The notes under the pieces are model-generated. The model worked only from the letters and a program-made list of their open reading frames with translations. It was not told the origin of the DNA and made no database searches. DNA of 40,550 bases. Origin: a virus. Location of the stretch: positions 1-40,550 of the IMG/VR virus record IMGVR_UViG_3300044675_000560; one strand, written 5' to 3'. Shown here piece after piece: positions 1,026-36,194 of this stretch. Positions within the stretch are counted from its first letter, which is position 1. Every line of letters begins with the position of its first letter. Made by a program: the position numbers and the translations under genes.

Positions 1026-1189
1026 TTACCATTGAATTGGCTGAGCGTGAGTGGCATGCCATTATGGGTGCCTTGCGCATGCAAGAGGAGAGCCACAAGC
1101 GTAATGACTTCAAGGCATTGGTATCAGAGATGCAAGAGATTCGCTCTCGCATGAATGATGCCATGATTGACAGCAAGTTATCCGTATGA
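1022..1189 (+). CDS. Small helical protein, 55 aa
   Basis: Begins in the ATGA overlap with the previous gene and ends at 1189. The 55-aa product is rich in Glu, Arg and Met and is predicted to be a helical hairpin. No family is recognised. Promoter P3 is built into its 3' end (TTGACA at 1167-1172), as P2 is built into the end of the 302-511 gene. Confidence 0.6.
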   Translation: MITIELAEREWHAIMGALRMQEESHKRNDFKALVSEMQEIRSRMNDAMIDSKLSV

Positions 1190-1195
1190 TAGAAT
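1167..1195 (+). promoter_or_regulatory. Promoter P3 (extended -10)
   Basis: TTGACA at 1167-1172 and TAGAAT at 1190-1195 with 17-bp spacing and TGA before the -10. Predicted start near 1202. Palindrome 4 follows at about +26, ahead of the amidoligase gene. Confidence 0.75.
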
Positions 1196-1257: not shown

Positions 1258-2505
1258 ATGATAGATGAAGTTGATGAATCAGTTCACGAATGTGCGGTGT
1301 GTAGTACCGACATTGAGACTGATGATGTAGTCTTCACAAGTTACGACAGTTCTATTGTATGTAGCGATTGTTGTATGATTTGCGATAGGTGTGATGAAGT
1401 GGGTACTACTAATGACACCTTCTATGAGATAGATGGTCGCATGATGTGGTGCGAATCATGTGCTGAGAATCGTGCTTACTACTGCGAATCATGTAGTGAG
1501 TACAACTCATTCGGTACAAGTTACATGACAGACAGAGGAGAATCATGGTGTGAGGGTTGTACTCAGGATGCTTACTACTGTGATGATTGCGACGAATGGA
1601 ACGCTGACGGATGCGATAGTTGCGCGGAGAGTAGCAGTCGTCTCATACACGATTACAACTACAGACCTGATGCAATCTTCCACTCTACCGATAAGAATGA
1701 ACGCTTGTTCTTTGGCATAGAGGTAGAGGTAGAGGCTGGTCGTAATTACGAACTAGCATCCGAGTATGCTTACCGATTAGAGGCACTAGACCTAGCCTAT
1801 CTCAAGAGTGACGGCTCTCTCAATCATGGCTTCGAGATAGTCACACATCCTATGTCTCATGACTTCTTCAAGAATGAGGCACAAGAACTATGGGATACGC
1901 TAGAACAACTGCGTACCAATGACCCGTACAAGGTCAAGGCATGGGATACGAATACCTGTGGCTTGCATATCCATATCTCACGCACAGGGTTTAGTGGTGG
2001 TGCGCATACGCACAGATTCCTCAACCTTGTGTATTCTAATCAAGAGTTCTATGAGAAGTTAGCAGGTCGTTCATCCGACCAATGGGCTAAGTTCACCGAC
2101 ATCATCAGACAAGATTACAAGCGAGATGAAGAAGGTAATCGCCTTCTTGATGAGCATGGAAGGTACTCCCTTACGACTACGCGTTCCTTTAAGAATAAGT
2201 TGAGTACCCACTTCCATACAGATAGATACTCAGCAGTTAATACCAATAACCCTGCCACACTAGAGATGCGTATCTTTAGAGGTAGTGTGAACAGTACTAC
2301 TATCAAAGCCCAATTAGACTTAGCGCATGCCAGCGTTGAGTATACCCGAACCCTTAACGCCAATGATGTAATCAACGGAGCACTTACCGCTGATAGTTTC
2401 ATGTGGTACATCTTCGAGCATGAAGAACTGTATCCACAACTTGTATCCCGTATAGATAAACTAATACCTAGCGTTCGGTTAGCCGAACAGAATGTGAGCA
2501 ACTAA
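1258..2505 (+). CDS. Amidoligase (GS-like COOH-NH2 ligase) with N-terminal zinc-finger array
   Basis: The 415-aa product has two parts. Residues 1-122 carry 17 cysteines arranged as eight CxxC pairs (12/15 through 119/122), enough for about four zinc sites of LIM or treble-clef type. Residues about 150-345 match the putative amidoligase family (Amidoligase_2, glutamine-synthetase-like fold): FGIEVEVE (152-159), KSDGSL (183-188), GFEIVTHP (191-198), CGLHIHI (234-240) and NNPATLEMRIFRGS (330-343). The family is known or predicted to join a carboxylate to an amine using ATP. The next gene encodes a glutamine amidotransferase, a partnership described for this family, so ammonia from glutamine or a peptide amine may be the co-substrate. 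ATG at 1258 has GAAGGG upstream. The last codons contain palindrome 5. The substrate is unknown. Confidence 0.85.
   Translation: MIDEVDESVHECAVCSTDIETDDVVFTSYDSSIVCSDCCMICDRCDEVGTTNDTFYEIDGRMMWCESCAENRAYYCESCSEYNSFGTSYMTDRGESWCEGCTQDAYYCDDCDEWNADGCDSCAESSSRLIHDYNYRPDAIFHSTDKNERLFFGIEVEVEAGRNYELASEYAYRLEALDLAYLKSDGSLNHGFEIVTHPMSHDFFKNEAQELWDTLEQLRTNDPYKVKAWDTNTCGLHIHISRTGFSGGAHTHRFLNLVYSNQEFYEKLAGRSSDQWAKFTDIIRQDYKRDEEGNRLLDEHGRYSLTTTRSFKNKLSTHFHTDRYSAVNTNNPATLEMRIFRGSVNSTTIKAQLDLAHASVEYTRTLNANDVINGALTADSFMWYIFEHEELYPQLVSRIDKLIPSVRLAEQNVSN
2473..2488. promoter_or_regulatory. Palindromic site 5 (GTTCGGTTAGCCGAAC), inside a CDS end
   Basis: Near-perfect copy within the last codons of the amidoligase gene (read as VRLAEQ). 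It ends 19 nt before the start codon of the amidotransferase gene, the same spacing as copies in non-coding leaders. Confidence 0.75.
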
Positions 2506-2507
2506 CA

Positions 2508-3350
2508 ATGTGTCTACTCGTTGTAGCCTCGCCTAATTCCACGCCTCGTAAGAAGGATTTGGAATGTGCATCATGTAATAATCCGCATGGCTTCGGCTTT
2601 GCAGTAGTGACTCCTAATGGAATCGTTACTGGTCGTGGCATGTCTAGTAAGAAAGTAATCAACAAGTTCCTAGAAGTACGCAAGGAATTTCCTAACAGTT
2701 ACGCCATGTTCCATGCTCGCTATGCTACGCATGGTGTAAAGAATGAGGATAACTGTCACCCGTTCAAGGTACCTAACTCACATGATACTTACCTTGCACA
2801 CAATGGTATCTTAGATATCAAAATCTCTGCTGGTGATAGGCGTAGTGATACGCGTATCTTTGCAGAGGATACGCTACCTAGCATGGGTGGTATCACATCA
2901 CTAGATGATGACCATGTGTGGGCTATGGTAAGCAAGTGGGCATTAGGTAGTAAGATTGCTATCTTTACACTAGACCCTAGTGCTAAGGAAGTATGCTACA
3001 TTATCAACGAGAGTGCTGGTCATTGGGATAATGAGGGCATGTGGTGGTCTAACACTACCTACAAGCAATCGAGTTGGAGTAACTACCTATCCATGCCCAG
3101 TACGGCGTCGGCTACGGCGCTTAATGATAGCGGGTACGAAGAAGATGCAATCGTTTATGAGTGCGCTCATTGCCTTACCATAGCCTATGAAGATGCCAAC
3201 CCGTACTATTGCGAGATGTGCTTCACATGCTATGATTGCGACGGGATGTATCAAGATACATGCCTATGCTGGACACCTGAGACAGACCGATACGCATACA
3301 ACAGAAAGGGAAAGATAAGTGGATACTACAATGACTCATTCGGATTCTAG
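2508..3350 (+). CDS. Class II glutamine amidotransferase-like Ntn hydrolase with C-terminal zinc domain
   Basis: The 280-aa product starts Met-Cys, placing the catalytic Cys of a class II glutaminase at residue 2. Other family motifs follow: NPHGFGFA (25-32), HARYATHG (69-76), NCHPF (82-86), LAHNG (96-100, oxyanion Asn/Gly) and SDT (113-115). The glutaminase active site therefore looks complete. Residues about 219-254 add eight cysteines (CxxC at 219/222, 235/238, 241/244 and CLC at 252-254), a zinc module resembling the one on the neighbouring amidoligase. The gene follows the amidoligase by 2 nt, with a weak ribosome binding site and palindrome 5 just upstream. It probably releases ammonia from glutamine for the ligase; the acceptor is unknown. 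Confidence 0.85.
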   Translation: MCLLVVASPNSTPRKKDLECASCNNPHGFGFAVVTPNGIVTGRGMSSKKVINKFLEVRKEFPNSYAMFHARYATHGVKNEDNCHPFKVPNSHDTYLAHNGILDIKISAGDRRSDTRIFAEDTLPSMGGITSLDDDHVWAMVSKWALGSKIAIFTLDPSAKEVCYIINESAGHWDNEGMWWSNTTYKQSSWSNYLSMPSTASATALNDSGYEEDAIVYECAHCLTIAYEDANPYYCEMCFTCYDCDGMYQDTCLCWTPETDRYAYNRKGKISGYYNDSFGF

Positions 3351-3543
3351 TGTTCGGTTAACCGAACAGACAGACCCGTTCAAGGGAATGTGGGTGGCGG
3401 GGTGGATTACCTCGACACAAACTTCTGACGGACTCGTACACTACGGGCCGTTTGATACCAAAGAACTTGCCCTGAATTGGGGTAAGGAACTAACTAATGT
3501 AGAGGTGTATCGAGTATTCGTACCCTCATTCAATGCAGGATAG
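3331..3543 (+). CDS. Small hypothetical protein, 70 aa
   Basis: Overlaps the end of the amidotransferase gene. The start is uncertain: GTG 3319 (GAAAGGG 8 nt upstream), ATG 3331, ATG 3388 and GTG 3394 (AAGGG 7 nt upstream) are all in frame. The later starts would place palindrome 6 outside the gene, in the usual position just upstream of the start. From residue about 20 the product has a compact beta-type pattern (WVAGWI, HYGPFDT, VYRVFVP) like small SPOR- or DUF-type phage proteins. No function is assigned. Confidence 0.55.
   Translation: MTHSDSSVRLTEQTDPFKGMWVAGWITSTQTSDGLVHYGPFDTKELALNWGKELTNVEVYRVFVPSFNAG
3352..3367. promoter_or_regulatory. Palindromic site 6 (GTTCGGTTAACCGAAC)
   Basis: Perfect 16-bp palindrome directly after the amidotransferase stop codon. 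It lies 20-26 nt before two candidate starts (ATG 3388, GTG 3394) of the following gene. Confidence 0.8.
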
Positions 3544-3780: not shown

Positions 3781-3925
3781 ACCTTATACTTTCTTAGTCA
3801 CTATCATGGACACAGAAGAAGAACGCAAAGAGCCACTATCTGAACAGCAATTAAAGGATACGCTCTGGGCTAGCATAGAGTATAGAGGTACTCTAACAGT
3901 GCTCAACATAGTGAGGGACTACTAA
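3773..3925 (+). CDS. Small hypothetical protein, 50 aa
   Basis: The ATG at 3773 (MSKPYTFLV) is chosen because it overlaps the preceding stop and gives a sensible beta-alpha pattern. The frame extends upstream to 3722, but that part overlaps the previous gene. The stop shares its last base with the WhiB start (TAATG). No family is recognised. Confidence 0.55.
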   Translation: MSKPYTFLVTIMDTEEERKEPLSEQQLKDTLWASIEYRGTLTVLNIVRDY

Positions 3926-4341
3926 TGAATGCAGCAATCATAGGCAACTGCACAGGAGATAGCAACCCTGATGCATGGTTTCCAGAACTATCGCGGGGTA
4001 ACCCGTCCGACACTAAAATGCTGGCATTAGCCACAGAAGTACGGCGTGCTATTGGTGAGTGCTACACATGTCCTAATCAGGCAGGATGCCTTGAACAAGG
4101 GATGCAACCTAAAAACTTGTCATATGGTATTTGGGGTGGTAGACTTGCAGGTGAGAGAATGCTCATGGCTGATGAACAGGGCATTGAGTATATGGTTACT
4201 GGTCGAACGGGAGGCACAGCGCATTCTCGGGGTATCAACAAGCGTTCTGTAGTAATCAAAGAAGATGAACGGGTAACTGTCGAAGCAAAAAGGAATGCAC
4301 TTGGGTTCTTGAGAAAGATACGACCATGGATTGAGGTATAG
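3925..4341 (+). CDS. whiB: WhiB-family iron-sulfur transcription regulator
   Basis: The 138-aa product carries the four WhiB cysteines: C9, then C46-x2-C49-x5-C55. The turn motif GIWGG (68-72) and a NPDAWFPE stretch near C9 are also typical. WhiB proteins are confined to actinobacteria and their phages, bind a [4Fe-4S] cluster and usually act with the primary sigma factor, so this gene is the best host marker in the window. The C-terminal 60 residues are basic and fit DNA binding. ATG at 3925 follows GTGAGGGA and is coupled to the preceding gene. It may reprogramme host transcription or bind near the phage promoters; neither is shown. Confidence 0.9.
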   Translation: MNAAIIGNCTGDSNPDAWFPELSRGNPSDTKMLALATEVRRAIGECYTCPNQAGCLEQGMQPKNLSYGIWGGRLAGERMLMADEQGIEYMVTGRTGGTAHSRGINKRSVVIKEDERVTVEAKRNALGFLRKIRPWIEV

Positions 4342-4342
4342 T

Positions 4343-4735
4343 ATGATTAAGAAATGGGCTCTATTGCTTACCTTTGCACTAGTAATATGGTTTATTAGTC
4401 ATTCGGTTAACCGAACAGAGGATAAGTCATTACCTGTAAGAGATTGGGCAGTTGCAGATAGCAAGGCTTATGCTCAGGATGTTGTCCTATCTTGGGCTAA
4501 CAATCAGTACGAATGCTTGGACAAACTATGGACACAGGAATCCAACTGGCGTTCAGAGGCATACAACAAAGTAAAGGTAATGGGTAAAAATGCTGGAGGT
4601 ATACCGCAGATATTAGGGTTAGACCCTAGAACTCCTGCACCATTACAGATAGACAGAGGCTTCGCCTATATCTTGCACAGGTATGGCACGCCTTGCATGG
4701 CATGGAAGTTTCATCAAAGAAAGGGTTGGTACTAG
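4343..4735 (+). CDS. Secreted or anchored lytic-transglycosylase-like protein
   Basis: The ATG at 4343 (GAGG at 4333-4336) is preferred over the TTG at 4331. The 130-aa product has an N-terminal hydrophobic signal or anchor (about residues 5-20) and a C-terminal SLT/APF-like lysozyme fold. Visible features are C58, TQESNW with probable catalytic E66, EAYN, GGIPQI (85-90), a QIDRGFAYI helix, C118 (likely disulfide with C58) and a terminal GWY. Related domains cleave peptidoglycan in actinobacteria. It lies in the early small-gene region, far from the lysis genes, so wall remodelling or superinfection exclusion is as likely as lysis. Palindrome 7 lies within its coding sequence. Confidence 0.8.
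   Translation: MIKKWALLLTFALVIWFISHSVNRTEDKSLPVRDWAVADSKAYAQDVVLSWANNQYECLDKLWTQESNWRSEAYNKVKVMGKNAGGIPQILGLDPRTPAPLQIDRGFAYILHRYGTPCMAWKFHQRKGWY
4401..4416. promoter_or_regulatory. Palindromic site 7 (ATTCGGTTAACCGAAC), intragenic
   Basis: Copy with one end mismatch, within the coding sequence of the transglycosylase-like gene (read as SVNRTE). It is the one downstream copy not placed just ahead of a plausible start codon. Confidence 0.7.
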
Positions 4736-4911
4736 TGGCTAGTTATGAATACAAGTGCGAAAAAGATTCTTCGACACAAACTATTCAGCGTGGCATGACG
4801 GATGATGAAATCATACCATTGTGCGATGCATGTAATGCACCTATGAACCGAGTATACTCAGCACCACCAGTTAAGTTCAACGGTTCTGGATTCTATTCGA
4901 CAGGAGGATAA
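4735..4911 (+). CDS. FmdB-type zinc-ribbon protein
   Basis: The GTG at 4735 overlaps the preceding stop and gives the expected N-terminus ASYEYKC. The 58-aa product has C8, then CDAC (30-33), and ends GSGFYSTGG, the usual FmdB pattern. FmdB zinc ribbons normally carry two CxxC pairs; here the first has only one Cys (CEKD), so zinc binding may be three-Cys or altered. FmdB-like proteins are thought to be small regulators but the role is not established. AGGG at 4721-4724 is the likely ribosome binding site. Confidence 0.7.
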   Translation: MASYEYKCEKDSSTQTIQRGMTDDEIIPLCDACNAPMNRVYSAPPVKFNGSGFYSTGG

Positions 4912-6878: not shown

Positions 6879-7198
6879 GGCTTCTTTTTAACCGCTTTCT
6901 TAATAGTCTTTTTCACAGCCTTTTTGACTGTGCGACGCTTATTTTCTTTGCCAACATTCTTTGAATGACTCATTGTTTGCAGGTTATCAATGCCGTCTCG
7001 CCCTGCTCGTCCTCCGTTGTCTTTATGGTCAACGTCAGTATTGCGTGGCAATGTCTTGCCCGTTGCATCTTCATAGTCTTTGCGTGCTTTGTTAGTAGAT
7101 GTTGTAGTGGTAGAGCCATCCTTCTTCTTACGTTTAATAACGTAGATAGGTCGTCCGCCGTTTTGCTTGCTTCCTTTGTATGGTCCAAAGATTTTCAT
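6875..7198 (-). CDS. HNH endonuclease with lysine-rich tail
   Basis: The 107-aa product has an HNH core: DVDHKDN (55-61), then DNLQTMSHSKN (71-81) with H78-x2-N81. The last 20 residues are almost all Lys, Ala, Val and Thr, a basic tail that may bind nucleic acid non-specifically. It sits in the replication operon, not beside the terminase where packaging HNH proteins usually lie, so a homing or DNA-processing role is more likely. Start and stop overlap neighbours. Confidence 0.8.
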   Translation of the reverse strand: MKIFGPYKGSKQNGGRPIYVIKRKKKDGSTTTTSTNKARKDYEDATGKTLPRNTDVDHKDNGGRAGRDGIDNLQTMSHSKNVGKENKRRTVKKAVKKTIKKAVKKKP

Positions 7199-7491
7199 CA
7201 GTTATCCCATTGTCCTCTCAGTACTAGCAATCCGATGATTGCGTAGTTTGCCATATCCTTAAATGAATCTTCTAAACTCTCATGCTCTGGGTCAGCACCG
7301 CTATCAACTAAGTTGTTGATGCGTGCTAACTTATCATGCATGCGTACTCGTAGACCATTGACTGCACCGCCAGGGGCTAACGAGATGTTCTTAGGACCAT
7401 AGTCCCTATGCTTGCTAATGAGGAGTTGAGACAACTCATTAACTGTATTATCAATATGAGTTTCTAAATGTAACTCACGCGCTATACTCAT
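7198..7491 (-). CDS. DUF1599/Nmad1-like protein (nucleotide-modification associated)
   Basis: The 97-aa helical product has the pattern SKHRDYGPKNI, RMHDKLARINNL, then ESLEDSFKDMANYAIIG, typical of DUF1599, a family related to all-alpha NTP pyrophosphatases and proposed to accompany nucleotide or DNA modification. A GAGGAGG ribosome binding site precedes ATG 7491, which overlaps the upstream stop (ATGA). It may hydrolyse or sense (d)NTPs; this is family-level inference. Confidence 0.7.
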   Translation of the reverse strand: MSIARELHLETHIDNTVNELSQLLISKHRDYGPKNISLAPGGAVNGLRVRMHDKLARINNLVDSGADPEHESLEDSFKDMANYAIIGLLVLRGQWDN

Positions 7492-14502: not shown

Positions 14503-15225
14503 TTAAGGTTTATCTTGCTCTATTTGATTCTTTAATGTTTGCCAACTCCAGTAGAGACCGTAGTAATCGGCATCTAGTGAGAATCGTTTCATATGTCGTA
14601 CTAGCGCACCTGTGTGTGCGTATAACGGAATGCCTGCTTCTTTGAGTTTGCGGAAGAACACGATGTCTTCTCCTACAAACTTATCGCCAATACCTTCTTG
14701 CTCTGCAAACAAAGACTGGTCTGGAAACTTCTCGCGAAGTTTAGGAATAATAGACTTGTGCATTAAGCAGAACCCAAGACCTGCTGAATCAACAGGAACA
14801 ACTTGGTTTTCTGGCAGTGGATGTAAATGACGAATGGTATGTTCGTTGACCTCTGTAAATAAAGCAGGAAACGGTTGGGCTAGTGTTCCTTCACCCTGCT
14901 TAGAGATGAAATAAGTACCAGATACAACTGGCTTACCAATCTTGTCTGCAGCATCCCAGAGTTTTGTTACTACGTGGATGTCTATAACAATATCTGAATC
15001 TACCCATAGGAGCCAGTCAGTCTTAACTTGGTCAGCCCAATAGTCAAAGAGAACCTGGCGTTGTCTGCCAATCTGATTACCCTGTACTCGCATACTGTGG
15101 GTAATAGGGATACCATTAGCAGGAGCCTGTAAGGCTACGCTAACCATACCCTCTGTGAACTTACCGTCTGTATTACCATTATCGCACCAGCCGAAGGCTA
15201 GTGTTCCTTTGTTTACTTTAGCCAT
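14503..15225 (-). CDS. Glycosyltransferase (GT-A fold)
   Basis: The 240-aa product shows a GT2-like architecture: an RVQGNQIGRQRQ helix near the N-terminus, TDWLLWVDSDIV with the DSD metal/nucleotide-sugar motif (D76, D78), VSGTYF, then GLGFCLMHKS and GEDIVFFRKLKEAG (ED motif). A sugar from a nucleotide donor would be transferred to an unknown acceptor. Located among adhesin genes, it may glycosylate virion fibres or the host surface; a role in DNA modification is less likely here. Confidence 0.75.
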   Translation of the reverse strand: MAKVNKGTLAFGWCDNGNTDGKFTEGMVSVALQAPANGIPITHSMRVQGNQIGRQRQVLFDYWADQVKTDWLLWVDSDIVIDIHVVTKLWDAADKIGKPVVSGTYFISKQGEGTLAQPFPALFTEVNEHTIRHLHPLPENQVVPVDSAGLGFCLMHKSIIPKLREKFPDQSLFAEQEGIGDKFVGEDIVFFRKLKEAGIPLYAHTGALVRHMKRFSLDADYYGLYWSWQTLKNQIEQDKP

Positions 15226-35627: not shown

Positions 35628-36194
35628 CTACTTAAATTGTTTAAATGTATAAATTGGTTCAGAGCACATATTATCGTATCGAATTGCAATAGCAATTGCT
35701 TTACGAATCATTGTCTCTGCTTGATTAACTGTCTTTACTTTTTCCACACCCAACGCTGCCAATGCACCGAGGGCAACATCTCCACCGCTACCCATAACGT
35801 ATACATTACGAACATCGGTATCCCAAGAATAATCATCAGAAATCGAGAAAACTTGCCCTTTGATTGAGATAAGGAACCCGCCTTCGTTCTGCGCAACATC
35901 GCCGTCCTCTTTCATATCAATACCTGCATCTACAAAGTTCTTGCGCATTTGCGGTATGAACTTTTGCGTCATGTAAGTATTTAAATCTTCTTTTAATGTT
36001 GCCTTAGGTTGTATATAACCATAATGTAGCACATTACTTGCGCGAGAAGAACCACAACCAGCAATCAATACACCATTGTTTTCTACAATCTTTGGTGTCT
36101 TGCTTACTTGAAAGCGTCCATGCTCGTCACTAAGACGAGAATCACACCCTAATACCGACCATCCGTCACCCTGTATCGCTACTAGCGTAGTCAT
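35628..36194 (-). CDS. Proteasome beta/HslV-like Ntn peptidase, candidate prohead protease
   Basis: The 188-aa product begins Met-Thr-Thr-Leu-Val. Removing Met exposes a nucleophilic Thr1, as in HslV and 20S beta subunits. Numbered from Thr1, the fold's Asp17 (GCDSR), a Lys near 33 (K34, SKTPKIV), the GSGG turn (VYVMGSGGDVALGAL) and a later Asp (IAIAIRYDN) are all present, so the active site looks intact. It lies directly after the portal gene, where phage maturation proteases are found. It may process scaffold or capsid, or degrade host proteins. No ATPase partner is encoded in the window. Confidence 0.8.
   Translation of the reverse strand: MTTLVAIQGDGWSVLGCDSRLSDEHGRFQVSKTPKIVENNGVLIAGCGSSRASNVLHYGYIQPKATLKEDLNTYMTQKFIPQMRKNFVDAGIDMKEDGDVAQNEGGFLISIKGQVFSISDDYSWDTDVRNVYVMGSGGDVALGALAALGVEKVKTVNQAETMIRKAIAIAIRYDNMCSEPIYTFKQFK

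Follow-up and report, generated by a model that had tools for sequence, protein, structure and literature searches.

The amidoligase and the class II glutamine amidotransferase (GATase) encoded back to back in the phage genome analyzed here probably form a single glutamine-dependent amide synthetase, with the ligase as synthetase subunit and the GATase as glutaminase subunit; a LIM-like zinc module on the ligase would hold the substrate or the partner. The synthetase reading is based on the family, fold, and active-site residues of the two proteins, the adjacency of their genes, the co-occurrence of the zinc module with the GATase, and a promoter ahead of the pair. In the proposed reaction, the GATase (Ntn fold, N-terminal Cys2) would hydrolyze glutamine and pass on ammonia, the ligase with its glutamine synthetase (GS) fold would use ATP to activate a carboxylate of the substrate as an acyl phosphate, on which it would trap the ammonia as an amide, and the N-terminal tandem LIM-like module would grip the substrate or the partner. 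The ligase is predicted from its sequence to be an ATP-dependent amide ligase, and we infer that it forms a complex with the GATase through which ammonia is channeled.

The ligase and the GATase of the window

The whole stretch of DNA analyzed (hereafter the window) is a virus record of 40,550 bases, and its gene content indicates an actinophage: it encodes WhiB (3925-4341) and a relative of L5/D29 gp49, and Streptomyces phages are the nearest to its terminase among annotated phages. The features of the pair are as follows.

1258-2505, plus strand: amidoligase gene, 415 aa (PF12224, E 1e-12; AlphaFold2 model; GS/YbdK fold)
1291-1623, plus strand: ligase zinc module, tandem and LIM-like (residues 12-122), with four predicted zinc sites from eight CxxC pairs
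1714-2277, plus strand: GS-like catalytic core of the ligase, residues invariant or at least 90% conserved over 76 sequences
2508-3350, plus strand: class II GATase gene, 280 aa; Cys2 is the nucleophile once Met is removed
3162-3269, plus strand: 8-Cys tail of the GATase, residues 219-254, C-x2-C-x12-C-x2-C-x2-C-x2-C-x7-C-x-C

Both open reading frames lie on one strand with the 2-nt gap described in the first-pass annotation. In approximately 70 syntenic sister phages the catalytic residues are all invariant and the cysteines nearly all, and this conservation rules out chance or spurious reading frames.

The assignment of the first protein to the amidoligases was borne out by the Amidoligase_2 profile (PF12224), which scored 48.9 bits (cut-off 22) and matched all 76 ligase homologues (E up to 0.5). 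Eleven core residues are invariant in 76 ligases with identities down to 27%, namely E155, E157, K183, D185, S187, E193, H237, H239, R323, N328, and E336, and R338 is conserved in at least 90% of them; together with G153 they make up the motifs G153/E155/E157, K183-x-D185-G-S187, E193, H237-x-H239, R323, N328, and E336-x-R338. We modeled ligase and GATase separately as single chains. The AlphaFold2 model of the ligase (mean pLDDT 88.9) has a fold of the YbdK/GS/GCS type (Z 11-12.3): the best match was YbdK (Z 12.3, 218 residues aligned, rmsd 3.9), glutamine synthetases followed at Z 10-12, the YbdK/glutamine synthetase match spans residues 145-414, and the first Foldseek match was Dop. An NCBIfam search returned no match for the ligase, a PDB sequence search with the ligase alone as query gave no meaningful match, and casein kinase matches of the ligase profile in the PDB were judged to be noise.

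The second protein had been called a Cys2 glutaminase of class II, which likewise stands. It matched PHROG 25883 over residues 1-260 (E 7e-37), scored 23.3 bits against PF13522 (GATase_6; E 6.8e-5, Pfam cut-off 27), and came slightly below the Pfam cut-off against PF13230 (E 4.5e-4); its only NCBIfam matches were weak ones to GlmS/PurF. A Clostridial partner GATase exceeds the GATase_6 cut-off with 54.6 bits. The protein carries the Cys2 nucleophile and the class II motifs HARYATHG, HNG, and SD; C2, H69/R71/T74/G76, and N99/G100 are invariant in 63 sequences and D114 is conserved in at least 90% of these. Its model has an Ntn-hydrolase fold (Z 13-14) and is poor over the last 90 residues, including the Cys tail. 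The active sites of both enzymes are intact, with residues invariant down to approximately 20-27% identity.

The first-pass annotation had also noted eight CxxC pairs on the ligase N-terminus and four Cys pairs on the GATase C-terminus. The ligase pairs (12/15, 35/38, 42/45, 65/68, 76/79, 98/101, 108/111, and 119/122) form four units of the pattern CxxC-x7-21-CxxC, and there is an additional cysteine, C39, without conservation. Fourteen of the 16 module cysteines are invariant in 70 sister ligases, the exceptions being C79 (90%) and C122 (69%), where His is a frequent substitute; the tail cysteines (219/222, 235/238, 241/244, and 252/254) are all 100% conserved in 76 sister GATases. Because of this near-complete invariance, the pairs are not a product of chance, and zinc is predicted to be bound by both the ligase module and the GATase tail. 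By its spacing the ligase N-terminus is classed as a tandem LIM-like zinc module: its first module reads C-x2-C-x19-C-x2-C-x3-C-x2-C-x19-C-x2-C, compared with C-x2-C-x16-23-(C/H)-x2-C-x2-C-x2-C-x16-21-C-x2-(C/H/D) in LIM domains, and its two halves are related (hhalign probability 91%). Pfam LIM matched 10 of 76 ligase family members (best 6e-7), the window protein not being among them, and PDB LIM matches of the ligase profile were weak (E 0.15). The GATase tail may have arisen as a duplicate of a ligase zinc unit: the two aligned with an hhalign score of 22.4, equaled in 1 of 60 Cys-preserving shuffles, at a probability of only 28%.

The same 8-Cys arrangement occurs in the GATases of Mycobacterium phage Marvin and an M. 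chimaera plasmid and is absent from those of MEP402, MW202733, and the Clostridial partner in locus L276; a Christensenellaceae GATase has two CxxC pairs that differ from the window tail. Among these sequences the tail is confined to the actinobacterial branch, to which the window group, Marvin, and the M. chimaera plasmid belong, and the general feature of the pair appears to be the ligase module, not the tail. Accordingly, the earlier suggestion that the zinc modules dock the enzymes together or onto a substrate is upheld in part: the LIM-like ligase module goes together with the presence of a GATase, but the tail is limited to that one branch, so its docking to the module is not what generally unites the pair.

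Promoter and palindromes around the pair

The pair was said to sit behind its own promoter, P3, and the regulatory region contains the following elements.

1167-1195, plus strand: promoter P3, TTGACA-17-TAGAAT with TG before the -10 element, 11/12 match
1199-1219, unstranded: leader inverted repeat (stem 9, loop 3), downstream of the promoter and ahead of the ligase
1228-1241, unstranded: 14-bp palindrome TTCGGTTAAACGAA, 16 nt ahead of the ligase start
2474-2487, unstranded: palindrome TTCGGTTAGCCGAA, within the ligase 3' end, 20 nt ahead of the GATase start
3353-3366, unstranded: palindrome TTCGGTTAACCGAA, right behind the GATase stop
46-59, 141-154, 655-668, 1228-1241, 2474-2487, 3353-3366, and 4402-4415: all palindrome copies

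A TTGACA-17-TAnnnT element matching at least 10/12 positions, mostly at approximately -91 from the ligase ATG, the distance it has in the window, is present in 50 of 70 sister phages as against 2% of shuffled controls, in agreement with the promoter claim. Leader inverted repeats resembling that at 1199-1219 are visible in many sister phages.

The 14-bp palindrome (TTCGGTTAACCGAA) has 7 copies in the window where 0.08 are expected, all of them in the rightward early region (first 4.4 kb). At the corresponding positions each sister phage carries a palindrome of its own (for example GTCGGCTAGCCGAC in L004 and TCCGTTTAAACGGA in L032), in 7-9 identical or nearly identical copies. A near-palindrome is common to the upstream regions of both genes in 31 of 68 sister loci, and in 29 of these 31 a copy also lies behind the GATase stop. 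The palindromes look like putative operators that co-evolve with a phage-specific regulator. Promoter-like sites at 66-94 (11/12) and 508-536 (10/12) precede small early open reading frames, with palindromes after each.

Three other genes of the window, all on the minus strand, deserve mention. An HslV/proteasome-like protein (35628-36194; PHROG 1040, E 1e-23; Pfam Proteasome, 1.5e-5) is encoded within the head module, beside the gene for the portal, and a glycosyltransferase-2-like protein (14503-15225; Pfam E 1.8e-4, below cut-off) among structural genes. A DUF1599 protein, 'nucleotide modification associated domain 1' (7198-7491; E 1.9e-7), is kept in most sister phages and may point to modified DNA; a DNA-base-modification role of the pair through this NMAD1/DUF1599 gene was considered, but nothing ties the gene to the pair.

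Pairing across phages, plasmids, and Clostridia

Among 80 IMG/VR GATase loci, the ligase is directly upstream in 76, and the remaining four start at or inside the GATase. The flanking genes are in identical order at all 80 loci, which therefore represent one lineage, so we sought independent evidence outside this sister group. The two genes are directly adjacent in Marvin (79 nt between them), lie 5 nt apart in MW202733, and overlap in MEP402 and in the M. chimaera plasmid. The GATase of this plasmid (WP_232527345.1, L362:4768-5523) is annotated from 4804, so that its catalytic Cys2 is missing; starting in frame at 4768, with ATG-TGC, suits the GATase family. The adjacency is also found in Clostridia, in mobile DNA of gut bacteria: the genes around three of these loci resemble those of mobile elements and include serine recombinases, DUF932, YqaJ, and a HerA/TrwB-type ATPase. 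No ligase-GATase fusion was found among 365 loci.

In a contrast sample of 391 Clostridia genomes plus matches from genome contigs, a Cys2 class II GATase is directly downstream at 28 of 31 loci with a zinc-type amidoligase and at none of 39 with an Amidoligase_2 lacking the zinc module; the Fisher value of 1.6e-16 is too optimistic because related loci were treated as independent, and the split largely coincides with two tree clades. The three zinc-type exceptions carry GATase remains by HMM. At two loci (L281, downstream of 6138, and L307) an intact zinc-type amidoligase adjoins an apparently truncated or broken GATase.

In the tree, the ligases with zinc module and GATase form a single clade (support 98/97) apart from ordinary Amidoligase_2. 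The ligases of Methylophilales phage MEP402, Marvin, and the M. chimaera plasmid also belong to this clade. Nested within it, a C. difficile phage/plasmid lineage has a ligase without the zinc module, and a GATase profile search of the whole 130-136 kb record found no GATase; the same profile does detect the GATase in Marvin, MEP402, MW202733, C75C1, and the M. chimaera plasmid. These sequences are suggestive of one correlated loss of zinc module and GATase. Clostridial GATases form a separate branch at approximately 20% identity, and the partner may therefore have been swapped. The functional pairing proposed at first reading is accordingly seen well beyond the lineage of the window, with both family profiles matching and both the pairing and the ligase zinc module conserved.

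Possible targets and comparison with known systems

The LIM-like module and the position of the pair in early/DNA-metabolism regions of phages and mobile elements incline us towards a macromolecular carboxylate, of a host protein or a wall-precursor peptide, as the target. The odds between protein and wall are roughly equal. One possibility, to be taken as tentative, is that the pair, with the same chemistry as in the preferred reading, amidates or re-links a wall-peptide carboxylate; this would alter the surface of the cell and prevent superinfection, as has been suggested for the phiEco32-type cassette. Such a role has been put forward for related phage genes (PMC5498523, PMC10580990, PMC11318856), in statements that are proposals without experiments, and the hosts of every carrier have peptidoglycan. 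However, no wall genes adjoin the pair, the ATP-grasp protein, second COOH-NH2 ligase, and gamma-glutamylcyclotransferase (GGCT/AIG2) co-encoded in phiEco32-type phages were not found among the 30 window proteins scanned, and ATP-grasp_3 was not found in 20 sister contigs.

It is equally conceivable, though again not the expected outcome, that a host protein is bound by the LIM-like module and amidated on an Asp/Glu side chain or at its C-terminus. LIM domains are modules that bind proteins, and PafA, a relative of the first Foldseek match Dop, is a GS-fold protein ligase; moreover, presence of the zinc module tracks the GATase. On the other hand, the highest structural scores of the ligase are to YbdK/GS, enzymes acting on small molecules, and nucleic acid is also a possible ligand of zinc modules. 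The further step, in which the LIM-like module is a reader domain that directs a two-subunit synthetase to host-protein carboxylates in a post-translational modification not described before, is doubtful; if true, such a protein-amidating class would have traveled through Actinomycetota, Clostridia, and Pseudomonadota on phages, plasmids, and mobile elements.

It is quite unlikely that the ligase forms a gamma-glutamyl or similar amide that the Ntn protein then hydrolyzes, as EgtC does in ergothioneine synthesis: the GATase model folds like PurF (Z 14.0), GlmS (13.9), and EgtC (13.4-13.6), which are essentially tied, but the GATase family profile matched PurF/GFAT/GlmS (1e-7 to 1e-4) and did not find EgtC. 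PADLOC anti-phage defense models gave no match. A functionally meaningless conservation of gene order in one phage lineage, as the 80 syntenic IMG/VR loci by themselves might suggest, is highly improbable and as a full account is rejected by the loci outside the sister group, since the pair recurs in five unrelated contexts and the Clostridia contrast separates the two ligase types.

The preferred reading, a two-subunit glutamine-dependent synthetase, builds on phage amidoligase-GATase pairs that are already known from Marvin, OM43 phages, and LUZ24-like phages; they were predicted more than 15 years ago and are treated as proposals alone in the accessible literature. The zinc-type subfamily and its GATase pairing appear to be undescribed in the searchable literature: no paper treating amidoligase and LIM domains jointly was found in a search that did not extend to Iyer et al. 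2009, and priority is uncertain. The subfamily is sharply bounded, its zinc module predicts the partner, and the lineage that lost both is a natural control.

Glutamine synthetase, YbdK, GCS, and PafA/Dop share the fold and the ATP/metal residues with the ligase; to our knowledge, they have neither a GATase partner nor a LIM-like module. MurT-GatD resembles the proposed pair in being a two-subunit enzyme for glutamine-dependent carboxylate amidation, but it combines a Mur-ligase fold with a class I-type GATase, and the folds are unrelated (PMC3267633). The 'peptidoglycan modification cassette' of the phiEco32/PSA-HP1/LUZ24 type, like the window, has an amidoligase and a class II GATase in the early region, and additionally holds an ATP-grasp protein, a second ligase, and AIG2/GGCT (PMC3890496, PMC5498523). 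In the Methylophilales phages MEP401 and MEP402 the ligase also adjoins the GATase in the early region (PMC10580990), but its N-terminus is long, unlike that of the window, with one predicted zinc site, and the GATase has no zinc tail. In Marvin (Marvinvirus), gp105-gp106 are, as in the window, a zinc-bearing amidoligase and, next to it, a class II GATase whose tail has the same eight cysteines, although the ligase has a shorter zinc module, a C-terminal extension, and approximately 30% identity; this pair was earlier proposed to make secondary metabolites (as cited in PMC10580990). With a bounded subfamily, a control lineage, and Marvin gp105-106 in Mycobacterium smegmatis as a representative workable in the laboratory, the old amidoligase-GATase prediction is now directly testable.
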